NCBI GenBank assembly: GCA_016791365.1
Contig: JAEUMT010000021.1
Coordinates: 62,001-126,000, forward strand
DNA length: 64,000 nt
Origin: Hyphomonadaceae bacterium
Lineage (GTDB): Bacteria; Pseudomonadota; Alphaproteobacteria; Caulobacterales; Aquidulcibacteraceae
Reading direction: 5' to 3'
Made by a program: the position numbers and the translations under genes. Positions 50,424 to 63,916 of the stretch are shown in pieces (position 1 is the first letter of the stretch; every line of letters starts with the position of its first letter). The notes under the pieces were generated by a model that was not told the DNA's origin, searched no databases, and was given only the letters and a program-made list of their open reading frames with translations.

Positions 50424-50437
50424 TTGATGTAGATCAA
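50424..50437. promoter_or_regulatory. FNR/Dnr-type box upstream of hemN
   Basis: TTGATGTAGATCAA is a perfect TTGAT-N4-ATCAA palindrome. Its centre is about 42 bases before the hemN ATG. For an activator centred at -41.5 this would put transcription start essentially at the ATG. Confidence 0.88.
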
Positions 50438-50472
50438 ATCACGCCCCGCGTTTCGCGCTCACAATCGCCCAT

Positions 50473-51804
50473 ATGCAACCCGAGCACTTGCACTACGCGG
50501 AACGACAGGCGCCTCGCTATACGAGCTATCCGACCGCGCCGCACTTTAACACCGGCGTCGATGCCGACACCGTGGCCCGTTGGCTTGCCGAATTGCCCGC
50601 CACGTCCCGGCTTTCGCTCTATTTGCACGTTCCGTACTGCCAATCGTTGTGCTGGTACTGCGGATGCAACACTTACGCTGCCCGCCGCGATGAGCCGGTT
50701 CTCGACTATGTCGATACCGTCCTTAAGGAGATCGAACTCGCCGCATCCAAGCTGACCGCACGTCAGGTCGTGGAGATACATTGGGGCGGCGGCACGCCCA
50801 ACATCCTGTCGGAGCAACAGTTCGAGACAATCACGCAACGCCTGGCGCGACGATTCGACATCGCCGCCAACGCACAACACGCGATCGAACTCGATCCCCG
50901 CTTCATCACCAGGGACAAAGCGGACGCGTACGTCCGCGCCGGCGTCAATCGCGCATCGCTCGGCGTTCAGGATCTCAATGCCCGCGTTCAGCAAGCGATC
51001 GGACGCGTGCAACCGCTCGAGATTGTCGAAGCGGCAGTCGCAACGCTTCGCGCGGCCGGGCTGAACCAGATCAGCATGGACCTCATGTACGGCCTGCCCC
51101 ATCAGACGACGGACGATTTATCCAATACGATCCGGCTCGCGGCGGCGATGGCTCCCAACCGCATCGCGCTTTTTGGCTACGCACACGTTCCGTGGTTCAA
51201 GAAGCGCCAAAGGCTGATCCCGGAAGCGGCGCTGCCAGGCGCGTCGGAGCGCTTTGATCAAGCGGAAGCCGCGCGAATTGAACTGCAGCGGCTCGGCTAT
51301 GTAGCAATCGGTCTCGACCACTTCGCGCTTCCGGAGGACGAATTCGCTCTCGCCCGCGATCAAGGCCGTTTGCGGCGTTCGTTTCAGGGGTATGTCGTTC
51401 AAGATGCAGACGCACTTGTCGGCTTCGGCCCGTCGGCGATTTCAACGCTGCCTCAAGGTTACGCGCAAAACGCGCCGGAACCTGGCGCTTGGGGACAAAT
51501 GATCGCGCAAGGTCAATTGGCCATCGTGCGCGGACACAAGCTTGACGACGCGGATCGCATTCGCAGGCGGCTCATCGAACAGATCATGTGCGATTTTAGC
51601 GCTGATCTCGCGCCACTCGGCGGCGCGGAGGCGTGTGCAAGTGAACTTGAAACGCTTGCGCCGATGTTCGCTGACGGGATGGTTCAGCTTGAAGGCGATC
51701 GAATCTTGCTCAGCGAGAAAGCACGCCCGTTCTGCCGGCTGACGGCGATGGCGTTTGACGCCTACGCCGCTTCAGGCGCGGCGCGCCATTCCAGGGCGGT
51801 ATGA
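50473..51804 (+). CDS. hemN: Oxygen-independent coproporphyrinogen III oxidase
   Basis: This 443-residue radical-SAM enzyme makes protoporphyrinogen IX without oxygen for haem synthesis under low oxygen. The [4Fe-4S] cysteines are Cys56, Cys60 and Cys63 in PYCQSLCWYCGC, with an adjacent Cys65 typical of true HemN. HWGGGTPNIL follows near residue 97. The C-terminal HemN domain (about 350-430) is present, unlike in HemW. There is no Shine-Dalgarno, and the FNR box spacing suggests a leaderless mRNA. nnrS starts four bases after the stop. Confidence 0.94.
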   Translation: MQPEHLHYAERQAPRYTSYPTAPHFNTGVDADTVARWLAELPATSRLSLYLHVPYCQSLCWYCGCNTYAARRDEPVLDYVDTVLKEIELAASKLTARQVVEIHWGGGTPNILSEQQFETITQRLARRFDIAANAQHAIELDPRFITRDKADAYVRAGVNRASLGVQDLNARVQQAIGRVQPLEIVEAAVATLRAAGLNQISMDLMYGLPHQTTDDLSNTIRLAAAMAPNRIALFGYAHVPWFKKRQRLIPEAALPGASERFDQAEAARIELQRLGYVAIGLDHFALPEDEFALARDQGRLRRSFQGYVVQDADALVGFGPSAISTLPQGYAQNAPEPGAWGQMIAQGQLAIVRGHKLDDADRIRRRLIEQIMCDFSADLAPLGGAEACASELETLAPMFADGMVQLEGDRILLSEKARPFCRLTAMAFDAYAASGAARHSRAV

Positions 51805-51808
51805 AGCA

Positions 51809-52978
51809 ATGACAACAGCGGAACGCTATCGCAGCTATCGCGGCGCACCGGTATTCGCGATGGGCTTTCGGCCGTTCTTTTTATTCGGCGCCGCTTTCGC
51901 GGCCTGCGCCCTGCCGCTTTGGATCATCGGCTTTCATGGTTGGATTCCGGGCGTCAATCGCGACTGGCACGTACATGAAATGCTCTTCGGCTATCTCGCC
52001 GCTGTCATCGCGGGGTTTCTGCTGACGGCCGTCCCGAATTGGACCGGCCGCCTGCCCGTCGCCGGCGCGCCATTGGCAGCGCTGTTTTCGCTATGGTGCG
52101 CGGGACGCCTTGTCATGCTGCTCGGCGCCGGGACCTTGTTGGCGGCCGTGATCGATACCGCGTTCTTGTTCGCCCTCGCCGGCATCATCGCGCGTGAGGT
52201 CATCGCCGCGGGCAACAAGAGAAATCTCGCGGTATGCGCGCTTGTGCTCATTCTAGCGGGCGCCAATGTGCTCACGCATTTGCGCTCTCTCGATCCCGCC
52301 CTTGGTCTCCTCGGTGAACGCCTCGCTTTGGGTGTGATCGCCATGCTTGTCGCGCTGATTGGCGGGCGCATCACGCCCAGCTTCACGCGGAACTGGATGG
52401 CTAAACAAAAACTCGCGCCTGAACCCGCATCCCCGGGCCTCTTCGATATTGTCGCTCTCATCGCTACAGCCGCCGCGCTTGGCGCCTGGGTCATTGCCCC
52501 CAATTCGCCGGCCGCCGGCGCTGCGCTTGTCGTTGCAGGCGTACTCACGCTTGCTCGACTGTCGCGCTGGAAAGGATGGCGCACCGCGGCCGAGCCGTTG
52601 GTTATCATTTTGCACACGGGCTACTTGTGGCTCGGCGTCGCATTTCTGCTGCTCGGCGGATCGGCTCTGGCGCCGCAATGGATCGCCGGCGTCGCCGGGA
52701 TACACGCTCTGACAGCCGGCGCGTTCGGCGTCATGACGCTTGCGGTTATGACACGTGCGAGCCGCGGTCACACCGGGCAGTCGCTCTCGGCAGGCGCGGG
52801 CACACAGGCAATCTATGTGCTGGTCAATCTCGGAGCGCTGCTGCGGGTCGCGTCACCCTTCTTTGCGGACGCCTATCTCGTCTTGATTATAGCATCAGCC
52901 ATAGCCTGGAGCGCCGCATTCGCGGGCTTCGTCATCGCCTACGCACCGCTCCTGCTGCACGCCCGCCGCGGCGCTTGA
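51809..52978 (+). CDS. nnrS: NnrS family haem-copper membrane protein
   Basis: This 389-residue protein has about 12 membrane helices. The N-terminal AMGFRPFFLFGAAFA is characteristic of NnrS, followed by conserved histidines (NRDWHVHEMLFGY, AGIHALTAGAFGVMTLAVMTRASRG-like). NnrS is associated with nitric oxide metabolism and protects cells under nitrosative stress, though its mechanism is unresolved. The ATG at 51809 lies four bases after hemN, excluding the longer frame that overlaps it. The shared FNR box makes it part of the anaerobic/NO regulon. Confidence 0.9.
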   Translation: MTTAERYRSYRGAPVFAMGFRPFFLFGAAFAACALPLWIIGFHGWIPGVNRDWHVHEMLFGYLAAVIAGFLLTAVPNWTGRLPVAGAPLAALFSLWCAGRLVMLLGAGTLLAAVIDTAFLFALAGIIAREVIAAGNKRNLAVCALVLILAGANVLTHLRSLDPALGLLGERLALGVIAMLVALIGGRITPSFTRNWMAKQKLAPEPASPGLFDIVALIATAAALGAWVIAPNSPAAGAALVVAGVLTLARLSRWKGWRTAAEPLVIILHTGYLWLGVAFLLLGGSALAPQWIAGVAGIHALTAGAFGVMTLAVMTRASRGHTGQSLSAGAGTQAIYVLVNLGALLRVASPFFADAYLVLIIASAIAWSAAFAGFVIAYAPLLLHARRGA

Positions 52979-53061
52979 TTTTCATTCAATGACAGTCCGC
53001 AAAGCGCGACGTCGTGTCAGCGTTCTTCCTCTGCATTGATGCGACGCTTTGTGTCGCCCGC

Positions 53062-53075
53062 TTGATCTACATCAA
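53062..53075. promoter_or_regulatory. FNR/Dnr-type box upstream of the NO reductase gene
   Basis: TTGATCTACATCAA is a perfect TTGAT-N4-ATCAA site, with its centre about 82 bases before the ATG of norB. The predicted leader is about 40 bases. The rest of the 172-base gap (52979-53150) shows nothing else I can name. Confidence 0.88.
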
Positions 53076-53150
53076 ACACGACATCAGCGAGACGCGAGAT
53101 TGTCGGCAAAACTCCACGGGACGTCTCGTGGAGGATTGGGGAAGCGAGTC

Positions 53151-55421
53151 ATGAGCATCAAAAGACTCTGGATCGCTCTCGCCGTCTTCATGGCAGCATC
53201 GTTCACTGCCTTGGGGTTCTTGGGCCGAGAGATCCATCGTCAGGCTCCGCCGATGCCGGCGGAGATTGTCGATACATCAGGCGCGGTAATTTACACGCGC
53301 GACGACATTCAGAATGGTCAACTTGCATGGCAGTCGATGGGCGGCATGCAGGTCGGATCGATCTGGGGGCACGGCGCTTACATCGCGCCCGATTGGTCAG
53401 CTGACCAGCTGCACCGGGAATCGCTGGCGCTGATGGATATCTGGGCCCAGCGCGAGCACAGCACGCCTTACGCCAGCCTGAGCGCAGAGGATCAAGCGGG
53501 CTTGCGCGAGCGGCTTACGAGCGAAATGCGCACCAACACGTACAATGCCGCCACCGACCGCATTGTCGTGTCGGAAGATCGCGCAGCGGCCATGCGCGAG
53601 GTGAAGGCTCACTATGTCGCGCTGCTTGGCAACGATCCGGCACTGGAATCGCTTCGCGAGGACTACGCCATCGCCAACAATGCGGTGCCGGATCTGACGC
53701 GCCGCGAACAGATCGCCGCGTATTATTTCTGGACCAGCTGGGCCGCCGGCACCAATCGTCCTAACGACACCATCACCTATACTTCAAACTGGCCGCACGA
53801 GCCGTTGATCAACAACGTGCCGTCGCCGGCCAATTTCATCTGGTCGATCGCGAGCGTTATCCTGCTTATCGCCGGCGTCGCGTTCCTGACCTGGATGCAC
53901 GCGCGGATGAAGCATGATGAACATGTCAAGCCGCCGGCCGCCGATCCGTTCTTTAACTTCAAGCCAACGGCGTCGATGCGCGCCACCTACAAATACTTCC
54001 TCACCGTGATCGGGCTCTTCTTGTTGCAAGTCGGCCTGGGCGCGGTGACAGCGCACTACGGCGTCGAAGGCCATGACTTCTACGGCATCCCGATTTCAGA
54101 CTGGATCCCGTATGCGGTGACACGAACCTGGCACACACAGCTTGCCGTTTTCTGGATCGCAACAGCCTGGCTCGCCACGGGCCTCTACATCGCGCCGCTG
54201 GTCTCCGGCAAGGAGCCGAAATTCCAGGCCATCGGCGTCAACATATTGTGGGGCGCGCTTGTCTTCGTCGTTCTCGGCTCGATGGCCGGCGAATGGCTGG
54301 GCGTACAACAAGTGTTCGACCTCGACACCAATTGGTGGTTTGGCCACCAAGGTTGGGAATACATCGACCTTGGCCGCTTCTGGCAGACATTGCTCTTCGT
54401 TGGCCTGGTGCTCTGGCTGGTATTGGTCACGCGCGCGCTTTGGCCCGCCTTGACCAAACCGTCCGAGAGCAAGCCCGTGCTTGCCATCCTCTTCCTTTCG
54501 ACGGTGGCGATTGCGCTGTTCTACGCGGCCGGATTCATGTGGGGCAAACACACCCACATCAGCATGGTTGAGTACTGGCGCTGGTGGGTCGTCCACCTCT
54601 GGGTGGAAGGCTTCTTCGAAGTGTTCGCCACAGCGGTAATCAGCCTGTTGTTCGTGAAGCTCGGCCTCGTGCGCGCGCAAACCGCAAACGTCGCGGTCTT
54701 GTTCGGCACGATCGTCTTCATGTTCGGCGGCGTCTTGGGCACCGCGCACCACTGGTTCTTCTCGGGCACTCCGGTGTCGGTGATCGCCGTGGGCGCGATG
54801 TTCTCCGCCCTCGAAGTCGTTCCTCTGGCGCTCATCGGCGCGGAAGCGCTCGAAACCTATCGCCACACCAAGGCAGCGCCCTGGGTGCAGACCTACAAAT
54901 GGCCGATCCTGTTCTTTGTGGCGGTATCGTTCTGGAATCTGATTGGCGCCGGTCTGTTCGGCTTCCTCATCAATCCACCGATCAGCCTCTATTATATCCA
55001 AGGGCTAAACACGACGGCGAACCACGGCCACACCGCCCTCTTCGGCGTCTATGGCATGCTTGGCATCGGGCTGATGCTGTTCTGCCTGCGCGGCATGTCC
55101 TCGCGGCTGGCTTGGGATGACGGTCTTCTGAAGACCGCGTTCTGGAGCATGAACATCGGGCTCGGCCTGATGTCGGTGCTCTGCCTGCTGCCGCAAGGCA
55201 TTCTGCAGGCCTATCACAGCATCAACACCGGCCTTTGGTTCGCACGCTCACCGGAAGTCATCCATTCGCCGCTGATGGAGCTGCTGGTGTGGATGCGAGT
55301 GCCAGGCGACACGATCTTCTCGATCGGCGCCGTCTGCATCGCCATCTTCGCGGGCAAGCTTGTATTGGCGCCCCGCAAGCCCGCGGAAACGCCGGACGCA
55401 GTCTCGATCCCGGCGGAATAA
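53151..55421 (+). CDS. norB: Quinol-dependent nitric oxide reductase (qNOR)
   Basis: This 756-residue single-subunit reductase converts NO to N2O with quinol as donor. The N-terminal part (about 1-230) is a fused, cytochrome-c-like but haem-free domain typical of qNOR (DDIQNGQLAWQSMGGMQVGSIWGHGAY). The catalytic core has about 13 helices with haem-ligand histidines in TRTWHTQLAVFWIATAWLA, HISMVEYWRWWVVHLWVEG, and GTAHHWFFSG. The ATG at 53151 follows GGAGGATTGGGG; the longer frame from 53049 is upstream of a natural start. No norC or nitrite reductase is adjacent, which points to NO detoxification. Confidence 0.95.
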   Translation: MSIKRLWIALAVFMAASFTALGFLGREIHRQAPPMPAEIVDTSGAVIYTRDDIQNGQLAWQSMGGMQVGSIWGHGAYIAPDWSADQLHRESLALMDIWAQREHSTPYASLSAEDQAGLRERLTSEMRTNTYNAATDRIVVSEDRAAAMREVKAHYVALLGNDPALESLREDYAIANNAVPDLTRREQIAAYYFWTSWAAGTNRPNDTITYTSNWPHEPLINNVPSPANFIWSIASVILLIAGVAFLTWMHARMKHDEHVKPPAADPFFNFKPTASMRATYKYFLTVIGLFLLQVGLGAVTAHYGVEGHDFYGIPISDWIPYAVTRTWHTQLAVFWIATAWLATGLYIAPLVSGKEPKFQAIGVNILWGALVFVVLGSMAGEWLGVQQVFDLDTNWWFGHQGWEYIDLGRFWQTLLFVGLVLWLVLVTRALWPALTKPSESKPVLAILFLSTVAIALFYAAGFMWGKHTHISMVEYWRWWVVHLWVEGFFEVFATAVISLLFVKLGLVRAQTANVAVLFGTIVFMFGGVLGTAHHWFFSGTPVSVIAVGAMFSALEVVPLALIGAEALETYRHTKAAPWVQTYKWPILFFVAVSFWNLIGAGLFGFLINPPISLYYIQGLNTTANHGHTALFGVYGMLGIGLMLFCLRGMSSRLAWDDGLLKTAFWSMNIGLGLMSVLCLLPQGILQAYHSINTGLWFARSPEVIHSPLMELLVWMRVPGDTIFSIGAVCIAIFAGKLVLAPRKPAETPDAVSIPAE

Positions 55422-55443
55422 CCACCCGGCCAGGAAGACCATG

Positions 55444-55474
55444 AAGGGAGGGTCGTTTCGACCCTCCCTTTTTT
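55444..55474 (+). terminator. Intrinsic terminator after the NO reductase gene
   Basis: AAGGGAGGGTCG (55444-55455), loop TTT, and CGACCCTCCCTT (55459-55470) form a 12-bp stem followed by T residues to 55474. This is the strongest terminator in the window. It separates norB from the feoA promoter. Confidence 0.9.
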
Positions 55475-55509
55475 GCACACTCGCTGCGGGTGCGACGCGT
55501 TCGCACAAC

Positions 55510-55523
55510 TTGATCATGATCAA
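55510..55523. promoter_or_regulatory. FNR/Dnr-type box upstream of feoA
   Basis: TTGATCATGATCAA is a perfect palindromic FNR site centred about 42 bases before the feoA ATG, the same spacing as at hemN. It implies a start of transcription at or very near the ATG. Confidence 0.88.
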
Positions 55524-55558
55524 AGCAAAACGGCGGCCATATCCGCCAGGATCATTCC

Positions 55559-55792
55559 ATGACAGTCGCCGATCTCTTTGATGGCCAGCACGGCCGCGTT
55601 GTATTGATGAACGCCGAGGCAGGTCTCGAATCGAAGCTGCGCGAAATCGGCTTTTGCGAAGGCGATCTGATCGAAGTCATCACCCGCGGTCCATTGGGCG
55701 GTCAGCCCCTCGCCGTGCGGCTGAACCGGCGCATCATCGCCATGCGGCTGGACGAGGCTGCCGCCCTGGTGGTCGACGTGCATCATGGCTGA
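55559..55792 (+). CDS. feoA: Ferrous iron transport protein A
   Basis: This 77-residue SH3-like protein should support FeoB in ferrous iron uptake. GLESKLREIGFCEGDLIEVITRGPLGG is the family's central pattern, taken in two pieces (GLESKLREIGF, EGDLIEVITRGPLGG). AGGA lies seven bases before the ATG. Its end overlaps feoB by eight bases. Placement behind an FNR box fits ferrous iron being the available form when oxygen is low. Confidence 0.92.
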   Translation: MTVADLFDGQHGRVVLMNAEAGLESKLREIGFCEGDLIEVITRGPLGGQPLAVRLNRRIIAMRLDEAAALVVDVHHG

Positions 55793-57605
55793 GCTCCGGC
55801 TCGCTCTTGTCGGCGCACCCAATTGCGGCAAGTCCACGCTCTTCAACGGCCTGACCGGAGGACGGGCCAAGACCGCGAACTATGCTGGCGTCACCGTCGA
55901 ACGCCGTGTCGGCCGCTTCGGCACGCCGGCCGGACTGTCGATCGAGTTGATTGACCTGCCCGGCATCTACGGTCTCACGTCGCGATCCTTGGATGAGCGC
56001 ATTTCTGTCGACACAATTCTCGGCCGCACGCCTGGCGAACAGGCGCCCGACGCACTCCTGGTGCTGATCGACGCCAGCGATATCCGCACCCAGCTGCATT
56101 TCATCCTGCAGATTCGGGCGCTCGGACTTCCGATGCTCCTCGCCCTCAACATGTTCGATCTTGCCGAACGTGATGGCGTCAAAATCGATGTCGCCGCGCT
56201 GGAGCGGCGCCTCGGAATCCCGGTGGTTCCAACGCGGGCCACGCGCGAAAGCGGGCGCACCGCGCTGATCGATCGGCTGGATGCTTGCTTTGCCGCGACG
56301 CAGCCGCTTGCGAGCAGCCCCGCTGAACAAAAATCCTTGCCTGTATTACAGCGCGAGGCGCGCGAAATCGCCCGCGAAGTCATTCTGGCCGAGCCTCCGA
56401 TCAATCGACTCACGCGCGCGATCGACCGCGTCGTGCTCAACAAGATAGCCGGCCCATTCATACTCGCGACCATCTTGTTTCTGATGTTCCAGGCCGTGTT
56501 CGCTTGGGCGCAGGCGCCGATGACGGCGATCGATGCTGGCTTCACGTTCTTAGGCCAGACTCTGACAGCCATCCTGCCCGACACGTTGTTGCGCGGTCTC
56601 CTGGTCGACGGCGTCATTGCCGGCGTCGGCAGCGTCATCATCTTCCTGCCCCAGATCGTCATTCTGTTCGCGCTCATCCTGCTGCTTGAGGGTTCAGGAT
56701 ATATGGCGCGCGCCGCCTTTTTGATGGACGAGCTAATGCTGCGCGTCGGTCTCAATGGCCGCGCTTTCATTCCGCTGCTGTCCAGTTTCGCCTGCGCAAT
56801 TCCAGGCATGATGGCCGCAAGAACGATTGAGAATGAACGCGACCGGCTGACAACGATCATGATCGCGCCGCTTATGACATGCTCCGCGCGACTGCCCGTT
56901 TATACCTTGATCATCTCCGCCTTCATTCCCCCCGACACCATCGGTCCGTTTGGGCTACAGGGTCTGGTGATGTTTGGGCTTTATGCGATGGGAATAGTGA
57001 GCGCGCTCGCGGTCGCGTTCGTCCTGAAGCGCACCGTCGCGAAAGGACCGCCGCAATCGCTGCTGATCGAACTGCCGACCTACAAGCTCCCTGACCTCCG
57101 CGATTTCGCGATCAATCTTTACGCGCGCGCGGGAGCTTTCCTGCGCCGCGCCGGCACCGTGATTTTCACGGTCTCGATCGCACTCTGGTTTCTCGCCAGC
57201 TTTCCCTCGCAAGCCGAAGGAATTCGCGGCTCATTCGCCGGCATGATCGGGTCCTGGCTCGAACCGCTGCTGGCGCCGATCGGCTTCAACCTTGAAATCG
57301 CGATCGCGCTCGTCCCCGGCATCGCCGCGCGAGAGGTTGCGGTGGGCGTTCTAGGCACCGTCTATGCGGTGCAGGGTGGGGACGCCAGCCTGGCCGCGAG
57401 CTTGCAGCACGCCTGGTCGCTTCCCACGGCTTTGGCCTTCCTCGCCTGGTACGTCTATGCGCCGCAGTGCTTTGCCAGCATCGCGGTGGCGCGCCGCGAA
57501 ACCAATTCACTGCGCTGGACTATCTTTACCGTCGCCTATCTTTTCGCGCTCGCCTACGTCGCCGCCGGGGCGACCTACTGGCTTGCGAAGGCGGCCGGAC
57601 TCTAG
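55785..57605 (+). CDS. feoB: Ferrous iron transporter FeoB
   Basis: This 606-residue inner-membrane ferrous iron transporter has an N-terminal GTPase domain with G1 motif GAPNCGKST (residues 10-18), G3 DLPGIYGL, and G4-type LNMFDLAERDG. About ten helices follow, with the gate motifs SGYMARAAFLMDELM and SSFACAIPGMMAART. No feoC is present. Length is short for FeoB but within the range of alphaproteobacterial forms lacking the C-terminal extension. The 111 bases to aox contain a small hairpin and an FNR box. Confidence 0.95.
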   Translation: MAELRLALVGAPNCGKSTLFNGLTGGRAKTANYAGVTVERRVGRFGTPAGLSIELIDLPGIYGLTSRSLDERISVDTILGRTPGEQAPDALLVLIDASDIRTQLHFILQIRALGLPMLLALNMFDLAERDGVKIDVAALERRLGIPVVPTRATRESGRTALIDRLDACFAATQPLASSPAEQKSLPVLQREAREIAREVILAEPPINRLTRAIDRVVLNKIAGPFILATILFLMFQAVFAWAQAPMTAIDAGFTFLGQTLTAILPDTLLRGLLVDGVIAGVGSVIIFLPQIVILFALILLLEGSGYMARAAFLMDELMLRVGLNGRAFIPLLSSFACAIPGMMAARTIENERDRLTTIMIAPLMTCSARLPVYTLIISAFIPPDTIGPFGLQGLVMFGLYAMGIVSALAVAFVLKRTVAKGPPQSLLIELPTYKLPDLRDFAINLYARAGAFLRRAGTVIFTVSIALWFLASFPSQAEGIRGSFAGMIGSWLEPLLAPIGFNLEIAIALVPGIAAREVAVGVLGTVYAVQGGDASLAASLQHAWSLPTALAFLAWYVYAPQCFASIAVARRETNSLRWTIFTVAYLFALAYVAAGATYWLAKAAGL

Positions 57606-57615
57606 GTTCCGCTGT

Positions 57616-57630
57616 GCAGTCACGGACTGC
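57616..57630 (+). terminator. Weak hairpin after feoB
   Basis: GCAGTC (57616-57621), loop ACG, and GACTGC (57625-57630) form a perfect 6-bp stem followed by TTAAACCTCTTTC. It may act as a weak terminator between feoB and the aox promoter. Evidence is limited to the structure. Confidence 0.35.
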
Positions 57631-57645
57631 TTAAACCTCTTTCGC

Positions 57646-57659
57646 TTGATCTAGATCAA
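57646..57659. promoter_or_regulatory. FNR/Dnr-type box upstream of the alternative oxidase gene
   Basis: TTGATCTAGATCAA is a perfect palindrome centred about 64 bases before the aox ATG, giving a predicted leader of about 23 bases. Confidence 0.88.
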
Positions 57660-57716
57660 GGCCGCCATGGTGCGGGCGCGAGACACTGAGCGTGTTGATT
57701 TTCAAGGAACAGACCG

Positions 57717-58403
57717 ATGCCCGCAGCGCCATTCGTTGATCTTAAAGTTCACCATGAACCGCACGGGGTTTCTGACCGTTTCGCACTCGGCTTCACAAAG
57801 CTGCTGCGTTTCTGCGCCGATACCTTCTTCGCCAGGAAGTACGGCCATCGCGCCGTGGTGCTGGAGACGGTGGCCGCCGTGCCAGGCATGGTAGGCGCCA
57901 CAATCACGCACCTGAAATGCCTGCGGCGTATGTGCGATGACAACGGTTGGATCCGCACCCTGATGGAGGAAGCCGAGAACGAGCGCATGCACCTGATGAC
58001 CTTCATCGAGGTCGCTAAACCCACCCTGTTTGAGCGCTTCGTCGTGCTGGCGGCGCAATGGGTGTTCTATATTGGCTTCTTCGTCCTATACCTCGTCAGC
58101 TCCAAGACGGCGCACCGCGTGGTCGGATACTTCGAGGAAGAAGCCGTCATCAGCTACACGCAATATCTGGCCGAAATCGACGAAGGGCGCACCGCAAACG
58201 TGCCGGCGCCCGAGATCGCCAAGCGCTATTGGAAACTGCCGCATGATGCGACCTTGCGCGATGTCGTTCTGGTCGTGCGCGCCGATGAAGCCCACCACCG
58301 CGATGTCAATCACGCCTTTGCCAGCGAATTGAACGGCGCGGACGTTACCTCGTCAATTGCGCCTTACCCGGAACACGCCGCGCAAATTCACACTGCGGCG
58401 TGA
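57717..58403 (+). CDS. aox: Alternative oxidase (AOX), di-iron ubiquinol oxidase
   Basis: This 228-residue membrane-associated quinol oxidase reduces oxygen to water without pumping protons. Unlike haem-copper oxidases, enzymes of this class are insensitive to NO and cyanide. All di-iron ligands are present: Glu50 in LET, Glu89 and His92 in NERMH, a Glu in FEEEAV (140-142), and Glu191 and His194 in RADEAHH. The hydrophobic helices around residues 50-65 and 108-128 fit interfacial membrane binding. AAGGA precedes the ATG. The N-terminus is short compared with mitochondrial AOX because no targeting peptide is needed. Its FNR-type promoter links it to norB and feoAB. Confidence 0.93.
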
Positions 58404-58456
58404 TACGTGGGGGCGCTGGTCATCAGGCCGGCGCCCGTCCGTTGCAAGAGGCGAAA

Positions 58457-58867
58457 ATGGACACCTTCTATCTTGAGATACGTAACGTCCACATCGCGGC
58501 AGTAAGTTTGAGCGGGCTTCTCTTCCTGGTGCGCGCGCTCGCCAGCAACGTATTCAACGCCCGCTGGCCGATGGCCGCTCCGATCCGCTATCTCAGCTAC
58601 ACAATCGACACCATTCTGCTCACCGCGGCGCTCATGCTGATGACGATCGTGAAGCAATTTCCTTTCGTCGACGCCTGGCTCACCGCGAAAGTTCTATTGC
58701 TGGCGGCTTACATCGTGCTTGGAAGTTATGCGTTGAAGCGCGCCAGGACCCGCGCCGCGAAACTCGCTTTCACCAGCGCGGCGATTGTCGTGTTTCTCTT
58801 CATCGTCAGCATCGCGCGCACGCACAACGCGCTTGGGTTCATCTCGCTGCTGCAAGCTGGCGCCTGA
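58457..58867 (+). CDS. SirB2-like membrane protein
   Basis: The ATG at 58457 gives about 136 residues with four hydrophobic helices and the SirB-family pattern: IRNVHIAAVSLSGLLFLVRA at the start and SIARTHNALG near the end. The function of SirB2 is not established. It follows aox by 53 bases on the same strand, so it is probably in the same FNR-controlled transcript. The 254 bases after it (58868-59121) contain a GC-rich hairpin (CACGCCG/CGGCGTG, 58929-58955), an FNR-like box and a Fur-like palindrome, but no gene. Confidence 0.8.
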   Translation: MDTFYLEIRNVHIAAVSLSGLLFLVRALASNVFNARWPMAAPIRYLSYTIDTILLTAALMLMTIVKQFPFVDAWLTAKVLLLAAYIVLGSYALKRARTRAAKLAFTSAAIVVFLFIVSIARTHNALGFISLLQAGA

Positions 58868-58964
58868 ACGAAGCAACATCTCAAATCCCGCGCTCGAGCC
58901 CGCACGCGCGGCGCATACTCCCTCTTTGCACGCCGGACGCCCCGGGTGCGGCGTGTTGGCTCGA

Positions 58965-58978
58965 TTGACCTTGATCAA
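58965..58978. promoter_or_regulatory. FNR-like box upstream of the TonB receptor operon
   Basis: TTGACCTTGATCAA matches TTGAT-N4-ATCAA with one mismatch (C for T at position 5). It lies about 150 bases before the receptor ATG. Confidence 0.55.
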
Positions 58979-59074
58979 GCACAATCGAGCCCGGCTCAGG
59001 TAAGTCCGCCCAAGGTTTGGCAATCGCAGGTGGAGCATTTCGCGGCCACTGACGTTGCCAAAGAGGATACTAAA

Positions 59075-59089
59075 TGCGACTAAGTCGCA
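59075..59089. promoter_or_regulatory. Fur-like palindrome upstream of the TonB receptor
   Basis: TGCGAC-TAA-GTCGCA is a perfect inverted repeat 33 bases before the receptor ATG. Its shape resembles alphaproteobacterial Fur sites of the TGCGAATGATTCGCA kind. Iron repression would suit a siderophore receptor, but the assignment is by resemblance only. Confidence 0.4.
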
Positions 59090-59121
59090 CTAGCGTTCGC
59101 AACAAGGGGAAGGACTGATTT

Positions 59122-61287
59122 ATGCGCCCATCGCTTACGTGGGTCAGCGCCATCGCGCTGACTGCTGGACTTTGCACGCCCGCTTTCGGCCAAGAAGCCA
59201 ATAGTGGCGATGAGGCCGCCGAAGAGATCGTCGTGGTCGGCCATGGTTCGCAGGTTGGATTGACCGACCCCTATGCCGGCGGCCAAGTCGCCCGCGGTGG
59301 CCGCGTCGGTCTGTTCGGCAATCTCGACATGATGGACGCGCCATTCGCCGGCACGGCTTACACCGAAGATCTCATTCACGATCAGCAAGCCCGCAGCGTC
59401 GGCGATATCCTGCAGAACGATCCGGTGGTGCGCGTCGCCAAGGGCTTCGGCAACTTCCAGGAACTCTATGTCATTCGCGGCTTTCCGGTCTTCTCGGACG
59501 ACATGACCTACAACGGCGTCTATGGCATCCTGCCGCGCCAATACGTTGCAGCAGAGTTGCTCGAACGCGTCGAAGTCTTCCGTGGCGCCAACTCGTTCTT
59601 GAACGGCGCCGCGCCCGGCGGGAGCGGCGTGGGCGGCGCCTTCAATTTGGTGCCGAAGCGCGCGCCGGATGATCCGCTCAGCCGCTTGACGCTTGGAATA
59701 GAAAGCGGCGGTCAGCTCTACGGCGCATTAGATATCGGCCGCCGCTTCGCGGACGATGATTTCGGCGTGCGCTTCAATCTTGTGCGCCGGGACGGCGAGA
59801 CTGCCATTGAAGATCAGTCGCGCGAACTCTCCGTGCTTTCGCTGGGCGCTGATTATCGCGGCGATCGGCTTCGCTTCGCGGCTGACGCCGGTTACCAGGA
59901 TCACACCATTGATGCGCCGAGGCCGCAGGTGACGCCGCTGGGCGCCATCCCCGATGCGCCTGAAGCCGATGGCAACTTCGCCCAGCCCTGGACCTTTACC
60001 GACGAGCGCCAATTGTTTGGCGCCGCGCGCGGCGAATGGGACATCAACGACCAACTGACGGCATGGCTGGCCGCCGGCGCGCGTCACGGTGAGGAAGCCA
60101 ACGTGCTCGCCAACCCCAGCGCCGCCGCCAATGGCGTTACGTCGGCATATCGGTTTGACAACACGCGCGAGGACGACGTCGTTTCCGCCGATGCGGGACT
60201 GCGCGCGGAATTCGACACCGGCCCCGTTGGCCATCGCCTCATCCTATCTGGAAGCGCGATCAAGTCGGAATCCCGGAACGCCTACGCGTTCTCGAGCTTC
60301 GCCGGCTTCACGGGCGATCTCTACGACCCGTTCGCCGTCGCGCCACCCGCCGCCAATTTCTTCGTCGGCGGCGATCTTTCCAACCCGTTGAAGACCGAAC
60401 AGGTCGACAATTCCAGTCTCGCTATCGCTGACATGCTGAGCATGTTCAATCACCAGCTCATCGTGACGATCGGCGCGCGTCAACAATGGATCGAAACGCA
60501 GTCTTTCGATTACAATAGCGGCGCTCTCGTCTCCCGCTATGAGGGCGACGCCGTGACGCCGTCCTTCGCGATCGTCTATCAGCCGTCAAATCAACTGTCC
60601 CTCTACGCAAACTATGCGGAGAGCCTGCAGCCTGGCGCCACCGCGCCCGCGACCAGCGGCGGTTCGCCCGTCCTCAACGCGGGTGAAGTACTGGCGCCGT
60701 TCACCGGCGAGCAATACGAAGCCGGGGTGAAGTATGACGCAGGCACATTTGGCGCGACGTTCAGCGCCTTCTCTCTCGCGCGGCCGAACGCGATTGTCGT
60801 CTCGCAAGTATTTCAGGCGTCAGGTGAGCAGCAGGTCGAAGGCCTGGAATTCACCGTATTCGGCGAGCCGCAAGAGGGCGTGCGTTTGCTTGGCGGTCTA
60901 ACCTGGCTCAACGCTGAACTCTCCAGCACCCAGGGCGGCATCAACGAAGGCAATCGCCCGATCGGCATTCCGGAGCTGCAAGCAAACATGAACGTCGAAT
61001 GGGATGTCCCCTTTGCGCCGGGGCTCACATTGGACGCACGCGTGCAATACACCGGCGACCAACAGGTGAACGAGGGCAACACCGTCGAACTCGACGCCTG
61101 GACGAGGTTGGATCTCGGCGCACGCTACACGGTCGATCTTGACGGACGTCCGATAGCGTTGCGCGCCCGCGTGGAGAACGTCACCGATGAGAACTACTGG
61201 GCCTCAACCGGCGGCTATCCTGGCGCGAACTATCTCGTGCTTGGCGCACCGCGCACGATCGTGGTCTCGGCCTCGATAGATTTCTAG
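59122..61287 (+). CDS. TonB-dependent siderophore receptor
   Basis: This 721-residue outer-membrane receptor has a signal peptide (about 1-24), a TonB-box-like EEIVVVG (about 35), a plug domain (about 60-165: DILQNDPVVRVAKGFGNFQELYVIRGF) and a 22-strand barrel. It ends in a typical aromatic residue (SIDF). It most resembles ferric siderophore receptors; the ligand is unknown. GGGGAAGGA lies upstream of the ATG. The PepSY protein and a small membrane protein follow, a common iron-uptake operon. Confidence 0.93.
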   Translation: MRPSLTWVSAIALTAGLCTPAFGQEANSGDEAAEEIVVVGHGSQVGLTDPYAGGQVARGGRVGLFGNLDMMDAPFAGTAYTEDLIHDQQARSVGDILQNDPVVRVAKGFGNFQELYVIRGFPVFSDDMTYNGVYGILPRQYVAAELLERVEVFRGANSFLNGAAPGGSGVGGAFNLVPKRAPDDPLSRLTLGIESGGQLYGALDIGRRFADDDFGVRFNLVRRDGETAIEDQSRELSVLSLGADYRGDRLRFAADAGYQDHTIDAPRPQVTPLGAIPDAPEADGNFAQPWTFTDERQLFGAARGEWDINDQLTAWLAAGARHGEEANVLANPSAAANGVTSAYRFDNTREDDVVSADAGLRAEFDTGPVGHRLILSGSAIKSESRNAYAFSSFAGFTGDLYDPFAVAPPAANFFVGGDLSNPLKTEQVDNSSLAIADMLSMFNHQLIVTIGARQQWIETQSFDYNSGALVSRYEGDAVTPSFAIVYQPSNQLSLYANYAESLQPGATAPATSGGSPVLNAGEVLAPFTGEQYEAGVKYDAGTFGATFSAFSLARPNAIVVSQVFQASGEQQVEGLEFTVFGEPQEGVRLLGGLTWLNAELSSTQGGINEGNRPIGIPELQANMNVEWDVPFAPGLTLDARVQYTGDQQVNEGNTVELDAWTRLDLGARYTVDLDGRPIALRARVENVTDENYWASTGGYPGANYLVLGAPRTIVVSASIDF

Positions 61288-61299
61288 GATCGCGCCACG

Positions 61300-62442
61300 G
61301 TGAGGAGGAGCACGCTCAGCGCTTGGGCCTTCGTCCACAAGTGGACGAGCCTTATCTGCACGCTGTTCCTCCTCATGCTGTGCGTCACGGGCCTGCCCCT
61401 GATTTTTCACGACGAGATCGACGAGGCGCTCAACACACAGACCTGGCGCCCCGCCCATCCCGAGGGGCCGCTGCTCGACTATGACGCGATCCTTGCGCGC
61501 GCGCTCCACAATCGGCCAGGCGAAGTTCCGCTGTTCATGAGCTTCGACATCGATCGTCCGGTCGTGAATGTGACGACCGGCCCACGCCCCGACGCCGCCG
61601 CCGGCGAAATGCATTTCGCTTCATTCGACCACACGAGTGGCGAACTGGTGGCGCCGTCCAACGGCGACGGCGGGTTGATGGACTTTCTGCTGCAGCTTCA
61701 CACCGACATGTTTTTAGGCTTGCCGGGCATGCTGCTGCTCGGCGCAATGGGCGTATTGTTCATCCTTGCCGTCATCTCCGGCATCGTGCTGTACGCGCCG
61801 TTTATGCGAAAACTCGACTTTGGCACGCTGCGCACGACGCGCTCCGCGCGTCTCGCATGGCTCGACCACCATAATCTGCTTGGCGTCGTCACGGTTGCCT
61901 GGGTGCTTGTGGTCGGCTTCACCGGCGTCATCAACACGCTAGCGACCCCAATCCTGGACTACTGGAAAGCGGATCAGCTCGCCGATCTCACCGCTCAGCA
62001 TCAGGGTGGGACAATTGCTCCCGGGCAATTCACTTCCGTGCACGCAGCCATCGCCGCTGCGGAAGCCGCGGCCCCCGGCATGACGCTGCAATTCGTCGCC
62101 TTTCCGGGCGGCGCCTTTTCCACTGACGCGCACATCGCCGTCTTCCTGCACGGCCGCACACCGCTGACGGAGCATTTGATCACGCCAGTGCTCGTTGACG
62201 CACAAAGCGGGCGCGTTGTTGGCCTGCGTGAAATGCCCTGGTACGCAAAGGCGCTGTCGCTGTCTCAGCCGCTTCACTTTGGCGATTATGGCGGCTTACC
62301 GCTCAAAATCCTTTGGACGCTGCTCGATCTGCTGACCATCTTTGTGCTGGTTAGCGGCCTCTACCTCTGGCTGGCGCGATCACGCGGTGACGCAAGATCA
62401 GACGTCCTCGATGCGCTCGCAAACGGCGATGGCGCCAAATGA
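61300..62442 (+). CDS. PepSY-associated membrane protein (probable siderophore/iron reductase)
   Basis: This 380-residue protein has four main helices. It begins with WAFVHKWTSLICTLFLLMLCVTGLPLI, as in PepSY_TM proteins that flank TonB receptors. Conserved histidines occur in FVHKW, LLQLHTDMFLGLPG, LDHHNLLG, and LSQPLHFGDYGG, spaced for haem binding as in inner-membrane siderophore-iron reductases. The start is GTG 12 bases after the receptor stop. The next gene overlaps the stop by four bases. Confidence 0.88.
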   Translation: MRRSTLSAWAFVHKWTSLICTLFLLMLCVTGLPLIFHDEIDEALNTQTWRPAHPEGPLLDYDAILARALHNRPGEVPLFMSFDIDRPVVNVTTGPRPDAAAGEMHFASFDHTSGELVAPSNGDGGLMDFLLQLHTDMFLGLPGMLLLGAMGVLFILAVISGIVLYAPFMRKLDFGTLRTTRSARLAWLDHHNLLGVVTVAWVLVVGFTGVINTLATPILDYWKADQLADLTAQHQGGTIAPGQFTSVHAAIAAAEAAAPGMTLQFVAFPGGAFSTDAHIAVFLHGRTPLTEHLITPVLVDAQSGRVVGLREMPWYAKALSLSQPLHFGDYGGLPLKILWTLLDLLTIFVLVSGLYLWLARSRGDARSDVLDALANGDGAK

Positions 62443-62630
62443 AACCAAAACCCGGATCCGGCCGATCGATAGCGGCGATCTTCGCGATGCCGACCCTCTT
62501 GGCGTGCCTTAGCCTCGCTGGCCTGATCGCCGCCCTTGTCGGAAATGACATATGGGACGTGCTGTCATGGTTCGCGCTAGCTGGGCCGGTCGCTATCGTG
62601 ATCTGGGCGATACTGGCGCGGCGGCGTTAG
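62439..62630 (+). CDS. Small two-helix membrane protein of the iron-uptake operon
   Basis: This 63-residue protein has two hydrophobic helices (about residues 13-33 and 41-59) and a basic end (LARRR). Small proteins of this type commonly close TonB receptor-PepSY operons, and their role is unknown. It overlaps the PepSY stop (ATGA). Its own stop overlaps the stop of the convergent gene by four bases (TTAG). Confidence 0.7.
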   Translation: MKPKPGSGRSIAAIFAMPTLLACLSLAGLIAALVGNDIWDVLSWFALAGPVAIVIWAILARRR

Positions 62631-63064
62631 CGATCAAGCGCCAACGCAAACTTGAGATGCTCGCGCACCCAGCCAACGAAACTCAGCCAAAGCCCCAGAA
62701 GCAATTGCAGGCAAACAATGATCTGCAGCGCGATTGGCGCCGCGACCACAGCATCCGTCATCTCCGAGCCCAGGCCTGGAGCGATCATCAACGCGGCCCC
62801 TTTGAACGAGCCGCCGATCCCGATGAGTGAAATCGACGCCGCGCTGAATCCCGACCAATGATGATGCGCGGCAACGATGCCTAGCCCGACGATTAACGTG
62901 AAGGCGCCGGCGACGAAGGTAAGCGCGTCATCTTGCATGAAGCTTGCAAAGAATTCTGGGATGGTGTCGCGGCGGACGCATAAGGCGACCGCCATGGCGA
63001 TGAGATAAGGGCCGACGATACGGGCCAACGTGCGGGTTCTGAGCGCGGGGTCATAGTCATGCAT
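62627..63064 (-). CDS. Four-helix membrane protein with His cluster, downstream of hemerythrin
   Basis: This 145-residue protein has four predicted helices (about 15-32, 45-68, 75-95 and 105-130). A striking AAHHHWSG sits between the second and third helices. Similar proteins occur in other alphaproteobacteria, but I know no function. It follows the hemerythrin gene by 81 bases on the same strand and probably shares its transcript. The histidines could bind metal or haem, which is inference only. Confidence 0.75.
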   Translation of the reverse strand: MHDYDPALRTRTLARIVGPYLIAMAVALCVRRDTIPEFFASFMQDDALTFVAGAFTLIVGLGIVAAHHHWSGFSAASISLIGIGGSFKGAALMIAPGLGSEMTDAVVAAPIALQIIVCLQLLLGLWLSFVGWVREHLKFALALDR

Positions 63065-63145
63065 CTTCGATCCTTCGCCAACCAGACTGCGCCACTGGCC
63101 AAACCTGCGCGTTGAGCGCGCGCAATTTCTGGCTGTTTCCGCGCC

Positions 63146-63691
63146 CTACTCGAACATGGGAAACAGCACATTGTTCTCGGTATCTATGTGCGCCCGCAGA
63201 TCATCGTGGAGCTTGCGACAACCGGCATAAAGGTCGCGCCAGCTCTTGCATGCATCCTCGGGCGGCTTGAAGGCGCGTGCGCCCGCCTGAAGCTCCACAA
63301 GACGAGCGTCATGCTCGGCATGCTCAAAGCGCATTCGCCGTATCGCAAACGGCGCACACCCCGCACCACCCGCGAGCAGCGCGGGAAAGAGCATCTGCTC
63401 TTCCTTCATCATATGCGCTTCCAGTTCCGCGAACGTGACTTTCAAAAACCCCGCGAGACCCGTCGGACACTCGGGATGTGCGGCGTGAACCGTCTCCACG
63501 CGTTCCGCCAATCGAATGAGCTCCGGAAGTTCGCGCCGGTGGGTCTCGTGAAACCGATCAAGAATGAAGGCGATCAACGCGTCCGGCGGATCGGAGCCCT
63601 TGTCGCGTCGCTCCAACGAGATATCCAATCCGGGCTCGGAAACGAACGACCCTTCCATCGCGGTATCGGCTTCGGTCATCATCATCATCAT
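63146..63691 (-). CDS. Hemerythrin-domain protein, RIC/YtfE-like but without the ScdA N-terminal domain
   Basis: This protein of about 181 residues has a four-helix hemerythrin fold. The pattern ILDRFHETHRRELPELIRL, HMMKEEQMLFP, RFEHAEHDARL, and DLRAHIDTENNVLFPMF matches the di-iron domain of RIC/YtfE proteins, which repair Fe-S clusters damaged by NO. The cysteine-containing ScdA_N/DUF542 domain of full-length RIC proteins is missing. The start is ambiguous because five ATG codons stand in tandem (63691-63677). A GGAG lies about eight bases before the first. A one-mismatch FNR box is 48 bases upstream. Confidence 0.87.
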   Translation of the reverse strand: MMMMMTEADTAMEGSFVSEPGLDISLERRDKGSDPPDALIAFILDRFHETHRRELPELIRLAERVETVHAAHPECPTGLAGFLKVTFAELEAHMMKEEQMLFPALLAGGAGCAPFAIRRMRFEHAEHDARLVELQAGARAFKPPEDACKSWRDLYAGCRKLHDDLRAHIDTENNVLFPMFE

Positions 63692-63738
63692 GGATTGCGC
63701 TCCGGGAGCGAAGGTGCCGCATCCCACGCGGCGGCGGT

Positions 63739-63752
63739 TTGACGCCCATCAA
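63739..63752. promoter_or_regulatory. FNR-like box upstream of the hemerythrin gene
   Basis: On the plus strand the site reads TTGACGCCCATCAA, one mismatch from TTGAT-N4-ATCAA. It lies 48-61 bases before the first ATG of the hemerythrin gene on the minus strand, a normal activator distance. Confidence 0.5.
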
Positions 63753-63842: not shown

Positions 63843-63916
63843 GCGGGCGTGATGTAGTGGTAGCCTGGAAGCTTCCCAAGCTTCTCGTGCGGGTTCGATT
63901 CCCGCCGCCCGCTCCA
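63843..63916 (+). tRNA. tRNA-Gly(CCC)
   Basis: The acceptor stem pairs GCGGGCG with CGCCCGC, followed by T and an encoded CCA (63914-63916). The anticodon arm GAAGC-TTCCCAA-GCTTC gives anticodon CCC, reading GGG. The T-arm is GCGGG-TTCGATT-CCCGC. The D-stem is slightly weak (GAT against GCC). A GCTAAAC about ten bases upstream (63827-63833) resembles a Caulobacter-type housekeeping -10 element. Confidence 0.95.

Follow-up and report, generated by a model that had tools for sequence, protein, structure and literature searches.

The 64,000-nucleotide stretch of contig JAEUMT010000021.1 from a Hyphomonadaceae bacterium (C25:62001-126000; the window) carries at its right end about 13 kb of genes for nitric oxide (NO) removal, iron uptake, haem synthesis and an alternative oxidase (AOX), several of them preceded by boxes of the pattern TTGAT-N4-ATCAA. 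We consider it probable (about 0.8) that these 13 kb make up the left-hand side of a FixLJ-FixK microoxic and nitrate-respiration island that runs ~18 kb past the window. Judged by gene content this would be a known type of low-oxygen island, with NO-defence genes and an NO-tolerant oxidase added. The stronger, testable outcome appears to be a link between FixLJ and aox rather than the island itself. The first-pass annotation had described a stand-alone NO island under one CRP/FNR-type regulon that joins NO removal to an NO-tolerant oxidase; the regulon and its content are supported, whereas the stand-alone island is not, as it continues into fixLJK and cco. Nor are haem-copper oxidases simply bypassed, as had been proposed, since a cbb3 set belongs to the same island.

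Boxes and genes within the window

Gene identities were checked with Pfam and NCBIfam profiles, and boxes were located by pattern search. The features are as follows.

50424..50437, no strand: perfect FixK/FNR-type box 5′ of hemN
50473..51804, + strand: hemN, oxygen-independent coproporphyrinogen III oxidase (TIGR00538, 419.6 bits, cut-off 325)
51809..52978, + strand: nnrS (PF05940, E=2.8e-108; ATG at 51809, the listed open reading frame (ORF) opening at 51755)
53062..53075, no strand: perfect box 5′ of norB (one-mismatch version in relative G048)
53151..55421, + strand: norB, quinol-type NO reductase (qNOR; fused N-terminal domain, COX1 domain, no CxxCH)
55422..58453, + strand: feoAB-aox segment separating norB from sirB2 (the two adjoin in relatives)
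55510..55523, no strand: perfect box 5′ of feoA
55559..55792, + strand: feoA (PF04023)
55785..57605, + strand: feoB (TIGR00437, 480 bits, cut-off 316)
57646..57659, no strand: perfect box 5′ of aox
57717..58403, + strand: aox, alternative oxidase (PF01786, E=1.5e-84)
58457..58867, + strand: sirB2-like membrane protein (norB neighbour in six relatives)
58965..58978, no strand: one-mismatch box 5′ of the TonB receptor gene
59122..61287, + strand: TonB-dependent siderophore receptor (TIGR01783, 359 bits, cut-off 223.5)
61300..62442, + strand: PepSY_TM membrane protein (PF03929)
62627..63064, - strand: unnamed protein, probably membrane-bound (no Pfam match; near aox in G058, 56% identity)
63146..63727, - strand: hemerythrin-domain protein, RIC/YtfE-like (below family cut-offs)
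63739..63752, no strand: one-mismatch box 5′ of the hemerythrin gene

The profiles confirm the earlier naming of HemN, NnrS, FeoA, FeoB, AOX, SirB and the TonB receptor, and the domain layout of NorB, without CxxCH, agrees with its earlier designation as a qNOR. The AOX motifs NERMH, EEE and DEAxH, whose Glu and His residues we take to be ligands, are conserved in 10 of 10 alignment rows. The hemerythrin protein had been called RIC-like and is no more than that, as it reaches 171 bits against a RIC cut-off of 254 and aligns at profile positions 63-214 only. A tRNA-Gly (ccc) at 63843-63916 lies just past the hemerythrin end of the cluster and is a possible insertion point.

All six boxed promoters reported earlier were recovered, four perfect (hemN, norB, feoAB, aox) and two with one mismatch. 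The window has no perfect boxes other than these four, which start at 50424, 53062, 55510 and 57646; chance would give 0.07, and no shuffle out of 100 has as many. Boxes with at most one mismatch number seven in the window against 1.17 expected. The one-mismatch sites start at 58965, 63739 and 26777, the last of which (26777-26790) is isolated, distant from the cluster and near chance expectation. The whole genome (3,458,208 bases, 99.47% complete) has 11 perfect boxes and no match to a non-complemented control pattern. A 31-kb part of C25 carries 6 of the 11, and the binomial chance that at least five of the other ten fall there is ~1e-8. Elsewhere, perfect boxes lie upstream of nrdJ (B12-dependent ribonucleotide reductase), in the divergent interval between narK and an ftrB-like gene on contig C11, and within the first codons of a listed glutathione-transferase ORF, ~120 bp 5′ of an internal ATG. 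For both hemN and feoA, 42.5 bp separate the box centre from the start codon. Most Fnr boxes of Sphingopyxis granuli TFA (S. granuli below) have their centre at about -41.5 relative to the transcription start (PMC7713065), so the spacing at these two genes would be compatible with activated, leaderless transcription.

Continuation into fixLJ, fixK and cco

The 18 kb past the window hold fixJ, fixL, fixK, a gene for an AurF-like protein, ccoI, ccoH, ccoG, ccoP, ccoO, ccoN, ompW and a hemJ-like gene, the last preceded by the same type of box. This segment (L005, on C25; 19,901 bases including a 2 kb overlap with the window) has nine boxes with at most one mismatch against 0.40 expected. CcoN, CcoO, CcoP and CcoG exceed their NCBIfam cut-offs, a copper P-type ATPase occupies the ccoI place, and FixH was matched. 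FixJ is composed of a receiver and a LuxR-type helix-turn-helix domain. FixL matches the haem-PAS domain of a solved FixL (1dp6, E=2e-48) with the His ligand and the pocket Arg aligned, both presumably with a role in the haem pocket; at the Arg, PDB entry 1y28 differs from 1dp6. FixK does not have the FNR cysteine cluster, its only Cys residues being at 92, 101 and 191, and has the recognition helix ETVSR. It is the sole match in the genome to the PF00325 helix model at E 0.001, and its promoter carries a 35-bp FixJ-type element conserved in 12 genomes of the genus. Upstream of ccoG there is a one-mismatch box (L005:14527-14540) centred 42.5 bp from the start, which is perfect and at equal distance in G048 (L158:3518), so that the cco set has an internal box that is conserved.

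A number of observations weigh against this assignment. FixK matches the model NF050806 best, yet its 231 bits fall below the cut-off of 300. A second CRP-family protein, the FtrB-like one on C11, has a similar recognition helix and could bind the same boxes. The one-mismatch boxes are singly weak and near chance, one of the 11 perfect boxes in the genome is inside an ORF, and no box with at most one mismatch lies directly 5′ of ccoN in the window genome. Within the family, one genome (G034) has cco without fixLJK in 35 kb on one side.

Two AurF-like ferritin-fold diiron proteins are encoded in the genome, each with a perfect box (L005:7983-9260 on C25 and L011:4281-5504 on C62); one scores above the Pfam cut-off, and the other, weaker one below it. 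The C25 gene recurs in G048, close to cco, and in G058, close to aox-norB.

Nitrogen-oxide genes and the proposed mechanism

The first-pass annotation noted that nitrate, nitrite and N2O reductases are absent, which holds for the reported stretch and not for the genome, where narGHJI is present and a box precedes narK. NarG scores 2145 bits (cut-off 1084), and NarH, NarJ and NarI are also above their cut-offs. The adjoining narK (L046:5261-8053) encodes a double-length transporter of 930 aa. NirK has no match in the window genome (and one over the cut-off in 1 of 60 family genomes), NirS is below its cut-off (20.8 bits against 25.5), and NosZ was not found with TIGR04244, clade II NosZ not having been searched. 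A denitrification remnant was rejected, as none of NirK, NirS and NosZ is over its cut-off and NarGHJI is present. NsrR was likewise not found in the genome; the one Rrf2 protein that passes the Pfam threshold resembles IscR most (169 bits, cut-off 208; NsrR 33 bits, cut-off 182), and NsrR control was rejected on these scores.

The physiological model that would fit best is the one known from S. granuli TFA, in which nitrate is respired to nitrite and NO arises as a side product. In the mechanism that we propose, FixL would phosphorylate FixJ upon losing O2, FixJ would bind the conserved element upstream of fixK, and FixK would bind the TTGAT-N4-ATCAA boxes of hemN-nnrS, norB, feoAB and aox, while also acting at narK/ftrB-like, nrdJ, the hemJ-like gene and the genes for the two AurF-like diiron proteins. 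NarGHJI would use nitrate, with nitrite accumulating and some NO forming; qNOR and NnrS would handle the NO, FeoAB and HemN would supply iron and haem respectively, and AOX would act as a quinol oxidase less sensitive to NO. Since the island continues as fixJ-fixL-fixK and cco, its main input is probably oxygen.

Origin of the cluster in the family

The comparison set consists of 60 family genomes, and an absence applies to the contig stretch examined round each locus. Both fixK and fixL lie within ~7 kb of cco in 11 stretches (G056, G035, G032, G055, G050, G045, G047, G031, G043, G046 and G058), and are not seen near cco in G048, on a 9.4-kb contig, or in G012. The fixLJ-fixK genes with cco are the conserved core in this genus.

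NorB is encoded in 9 of the 60 genomes. Its gene adjoins sirB2 in six (G048, G043, G056, G020, G018 and G058); the G053 norB stretch has no sirB2, and a partial copy in G037 was left out. G048 (NorB 86%, CcoN 95% identical) has nnrS-norB-sirB2 uninterrupted and in the same order as the window, and where norB and sirB2 are directly joined there the window has 3.0 kb containing feoAB-aox. Because norB and sirB2 are neighbours in relatives, the feoAB-aox segment is probably an insertion between them. An old aox-sirB2 operon was rejected, as sirB2 accompanies norB in the six relatives.

AOX occurs in 22 of the 60 genomes. Only G058 shares the window type (82% identity), with an island of aox, norB-sirB2, an AurF-like gene, fixLJK and cco in another order, and the AOX at the other 21 family places are 63-70% identical to that of the window. 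Near these 21 places we found only weak paralogue matches (FixL, FixJ, SDR and one FeoB fragment, at 27-37% identity) and four perfect boxes, several kilobases off. The clustering with aox is present in 2 of the 60 genomes. A lack of clustering in relatives, named in the first-pass annotation as a refuting outcome, mostly applies, for in the stretch examined it is not seen in 20 of the 22 AOX-bearing genomes, some of whose contigs end 0.5-5 kb from aox. The exact cluster is rare and looks recent.

In a tree of 98 AOX sequences the window copy groups with those of Sphingomonadales, Caulobacteraceae and Reyranella, apart from the family AOX (100/99), and on this support its being the family's own copy was rejected. 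The tree includes 17 of the 21 family places outside G000 and G058, omitting L023 and L036 (stop in extended frame) as well as L029 and L030; as a test of origin it is limited by the selection of its 80 named rows on similarity. Transfer of the AOX gene would be the simple reading, and an old duplication with loss the alternative.

Such a distribution could also reflect a chance gathering of separately acquired genes, whose joint function would be nothing beyond shared low-oxygen control. The aox link in just 2 of 60 genomes agrees with this, as do six norB stretches without fixK or cco (G048, G043, G056, G020, G018 and G053, with G037 left out). Two genomes, however, have fixLJK-cco surrounded by aox, norB and an AurF-like gene, ordered differently in each, and the units carry their own boxes, so that we regard a chance gathering as unlikely.

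The regulator acting at the boxes

A FixK-driven island has also to be weighed against a dedicated NO-defence regulon, apart from oxygen control, in which a Dnr/NnrR-type protein would act at the boxes and aox would sustain respiration under NO. The gene content of the island fits this explanation, aox and norB are NO-induced in S. granuli (PMC6472365), and related aox genes often have a globin, truncated haemoglobin or DUF1971 gene downstream. Nevertheless, the adjoining regulator is FixK-like and accompanied by FixLJ, no NsrR was found in the genome, and boxes also precede the hemJ-like gene, nrdJ, narK and feoAB, fitting low-oxygen life. Further, the NnrR consensus as printed in PMC1274295 is ctTTGcgnnnncgCAAag, not TTGAT. 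Taken together, this makes a separate NO regulon quite improbable.

Regulation of the boxes by the FtrB-like protein beside narK on C11, answering nitrate or nitrite, is highly doubtful: its ENLSR recognition helix, the perfect box in its own divergent promoter, its NF006901 score (323 bits, cut-off 211) and the description of S. granuli ftrB as similar to NarR (PMC7713065) are set against the position of FixK in the cluster, its being the sole PF00325 match at E 0.001, and a box density that peaks round fixK.

A probable FixLJ-aox link in relatives of the AOX

The named AOX loci are the best 80 among the matches listed and are related to one another; 71 of them, with at least 2.5 kb before aox, were tested. 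At 30 of the 71, fixL-fixJ is adjacent and divergent to aox, in Brevundimonas, Phenylobacterium, Caulobacter, Sphingopyxis, Sphingomonas, Tsuneonella, Novosphingobium and other genera; all four Sphingopyxis loci show this arrangement. The haem-pocket His of FixL is kept in 30 of 30 readable rows (the L120 fixL frame is broken and the His there unreadable) and the Arg in 31 of 31, the window included. By comparison, a perfect FixK-type box within ~350 bp before aox is present among the 80 loci only in L076 (probably G058), and a one-mismatch box in L127.

A 35-bp FixJ matrix built from the fixK promoters of 12 window-genus genomes only was used to scan the 250 bp upstream of aox. The score exceeds that of 99 or more of 100 shuffles (first-order Markov resamples) at 22 of the 30 fixLJ-adjacent loci and 11 of the 41 others; six of these 11 score above 8, five of the six being labelled Caulobacterales. 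When each locus is scanned over its full length of up to 20 kb, the top-scoring site falls within those 250 bp at 28 of the 71. L076 was then dropped, since its fixK promoter had taught the matrix, which leaves 28 of 70 (18/30 fixLJ-adjacent and 10/40 others). Column-permuted matrices give a mean of 1.3 and a maximum of 7, with none of 100 reaching 28, and a mirrored matrix gives 2. The published fixK promoter element CSNAATWT (PMC4999443) is present on the aox strand, in the 200 bp upstream of aox, at 15 of the 30 adjacent loci and 3 of the 41 others, against a background of 0.026 per 200 bp. By either test (matrix or CSNAATWT) 27 of the 30 adjacent loci have a FixJ-like signal.

The best matrix sites at the fixK promoter regions of S. 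fredii and P. zucineum contain TAAGTATTTTTACTTA and ACGTAGTTTTCCC, and resemble the published FixJ sites, quoted as TAAGTAATTTCCCTTA and GTAGTTTCCC (PMC4999443); their scores are low (1.3 and -0.7), and the comparison is qualitative. Sphingomonadales elements mostly score below those of Caulobacterales, and several best matches are on the opposite strand. No FixJ-like element is present in the 250 bp before aox of the window (-15.4) or of G058 (-8.2), both of which have FixK boxes. Probably aox is a direct FixJ target elsewhere and is FixK-driven in the window genome.

We tentatively propose, at somewhat less than even odds, that in Caulobacterales and Sphingomonadales aox is a second conserved FixJ target beside fixK, often as part of a module in which fixLJ and aox diverge and aox is followed by globin or DUF1971 genes, a module that is also plasmid-borne, and that the haem of FixL lets either NO or lack of O2 induce aox; in the window lineage aox would have moved one step down, to FixK. 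The 30 fixLJ-adjacent AOX are all on one side of a well-supported branch relative to the other labelled groups, so the linkage may have a single origin and the counts are not independent. A FixL haem that answers NO would, if true, account for the way NO induces aox in S. granuli, for which the nsrR gene of that organism is a rival. As far as the available texts go, no paper in the literature searched, with subscription journals mostly outside its scope, links FixLJ to aox. AOX presumably has a lower oxygen affinity than cbb3, and for such an enzyme control by a low-oxygen sensor makes little sense unless the threat is NO and not a shortage of oxygen alone. The module would provide a concrete candidate regulator for aox in alphaproteobacteria, and through aox the response of FixL to NO in cells becomes a simple genetic question.

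NO-related neighbours of AOX

A predicted conjugative plasmid of Rhizorhabdus wittichii RW1 carries fixLJ and aox in divergent orientation, with aox followed by a receiver-domain gene (by record annotation, without a Pfam match), a TatC-annotated gene, DUF1971 and a globin. On four further plasmid records (NZ_AP018821, NZ_CP022749, NZ_CP022747 and NZ_CP020926) the coordinates place aox ~0.4 kb from a fixL match, in divergent orientation. Relatives of the RW1 genes lie at most 6 kb downstream of aox among the best 80 loci as follows: DUF1971 at 38, globin at 19, truncated haemoglobin at 19 and receiver at 23. At the family AOX places none of the five RW1 aox-region genes was found except for one receiver-domain match at the G058 locus. 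These neighbours support an NO-tolerance role for this AOX, whatever its regulator.

By sequence the TatC-annotated gene of RW1 (L179:3121-3504) encodes a group III truncated haemoglobin (1e-14). The S. granuli 'TatC' SGRAN_3394, in the most NO-induced operon, may share this misnaming.

Comparison with known systems

The closest regulatory parallel is the Caulobacterales FixLJ-FixK regulon, which has FixLJ, a FixK without an Fe-S cluster, TTGA..TCAA boxes, hemN and cco members and a FixJ element before fixK (PMC4999443). It differs in that FixJ sites are consistently found only before fixK, and the terms 'norB', 'feoB' and 'aox' have no occurrences in the main text of that paper. In the AOX family (PF01786) the full domain and the acidic and His motifs are shared, whereas the neighbourhood and the FixK box differ.

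In gene content the window genome is close to S. granuli TFA, which respires nitrate and not nitrite (PMC6472365, PMC7713065), induces narG up to 200-fold, and induces aox, norB-nnrS2 and ytfE both by anaerobiosis and by NO (PMC6472365). Its Fnr box is TTGAc/t-N4-g/aTCAA, and the Fnr-boxed set comprises narU and the divergent ftrB, nrdZ, hemN2, ccoN and the divergent ompW, and cupin-norB-nnrS2 (PMC7713065), to which the boxed narK/ftrB, nrdJ, hemN-nnrS, norB and cco/ompW region correspond closely. The window genome differs in its boxed feoAB and aox, its AurF-like genes and the physical clustering; in S. granuli the genes are scattered by locus tag, and there are two Cys-type Fnr proteins and an nsrR gene (PMC6472365, PMC7713065). 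The text of PMC7713065 ascribes the fast induction of aox there probably to NO, with aox outside the Fnr-boxed table and no regulator named, and mentions FixLJ once, in its introduction.

The Vibrio fischeri NsrR regulon co-regulates aox with NO defence, the same grouping as here, although the repressor is NsrR, which was not found in the window genome (PMC1274295). An AOX associated with NO defence is already known, then, from both Vibrio fischeri and S. granuli.

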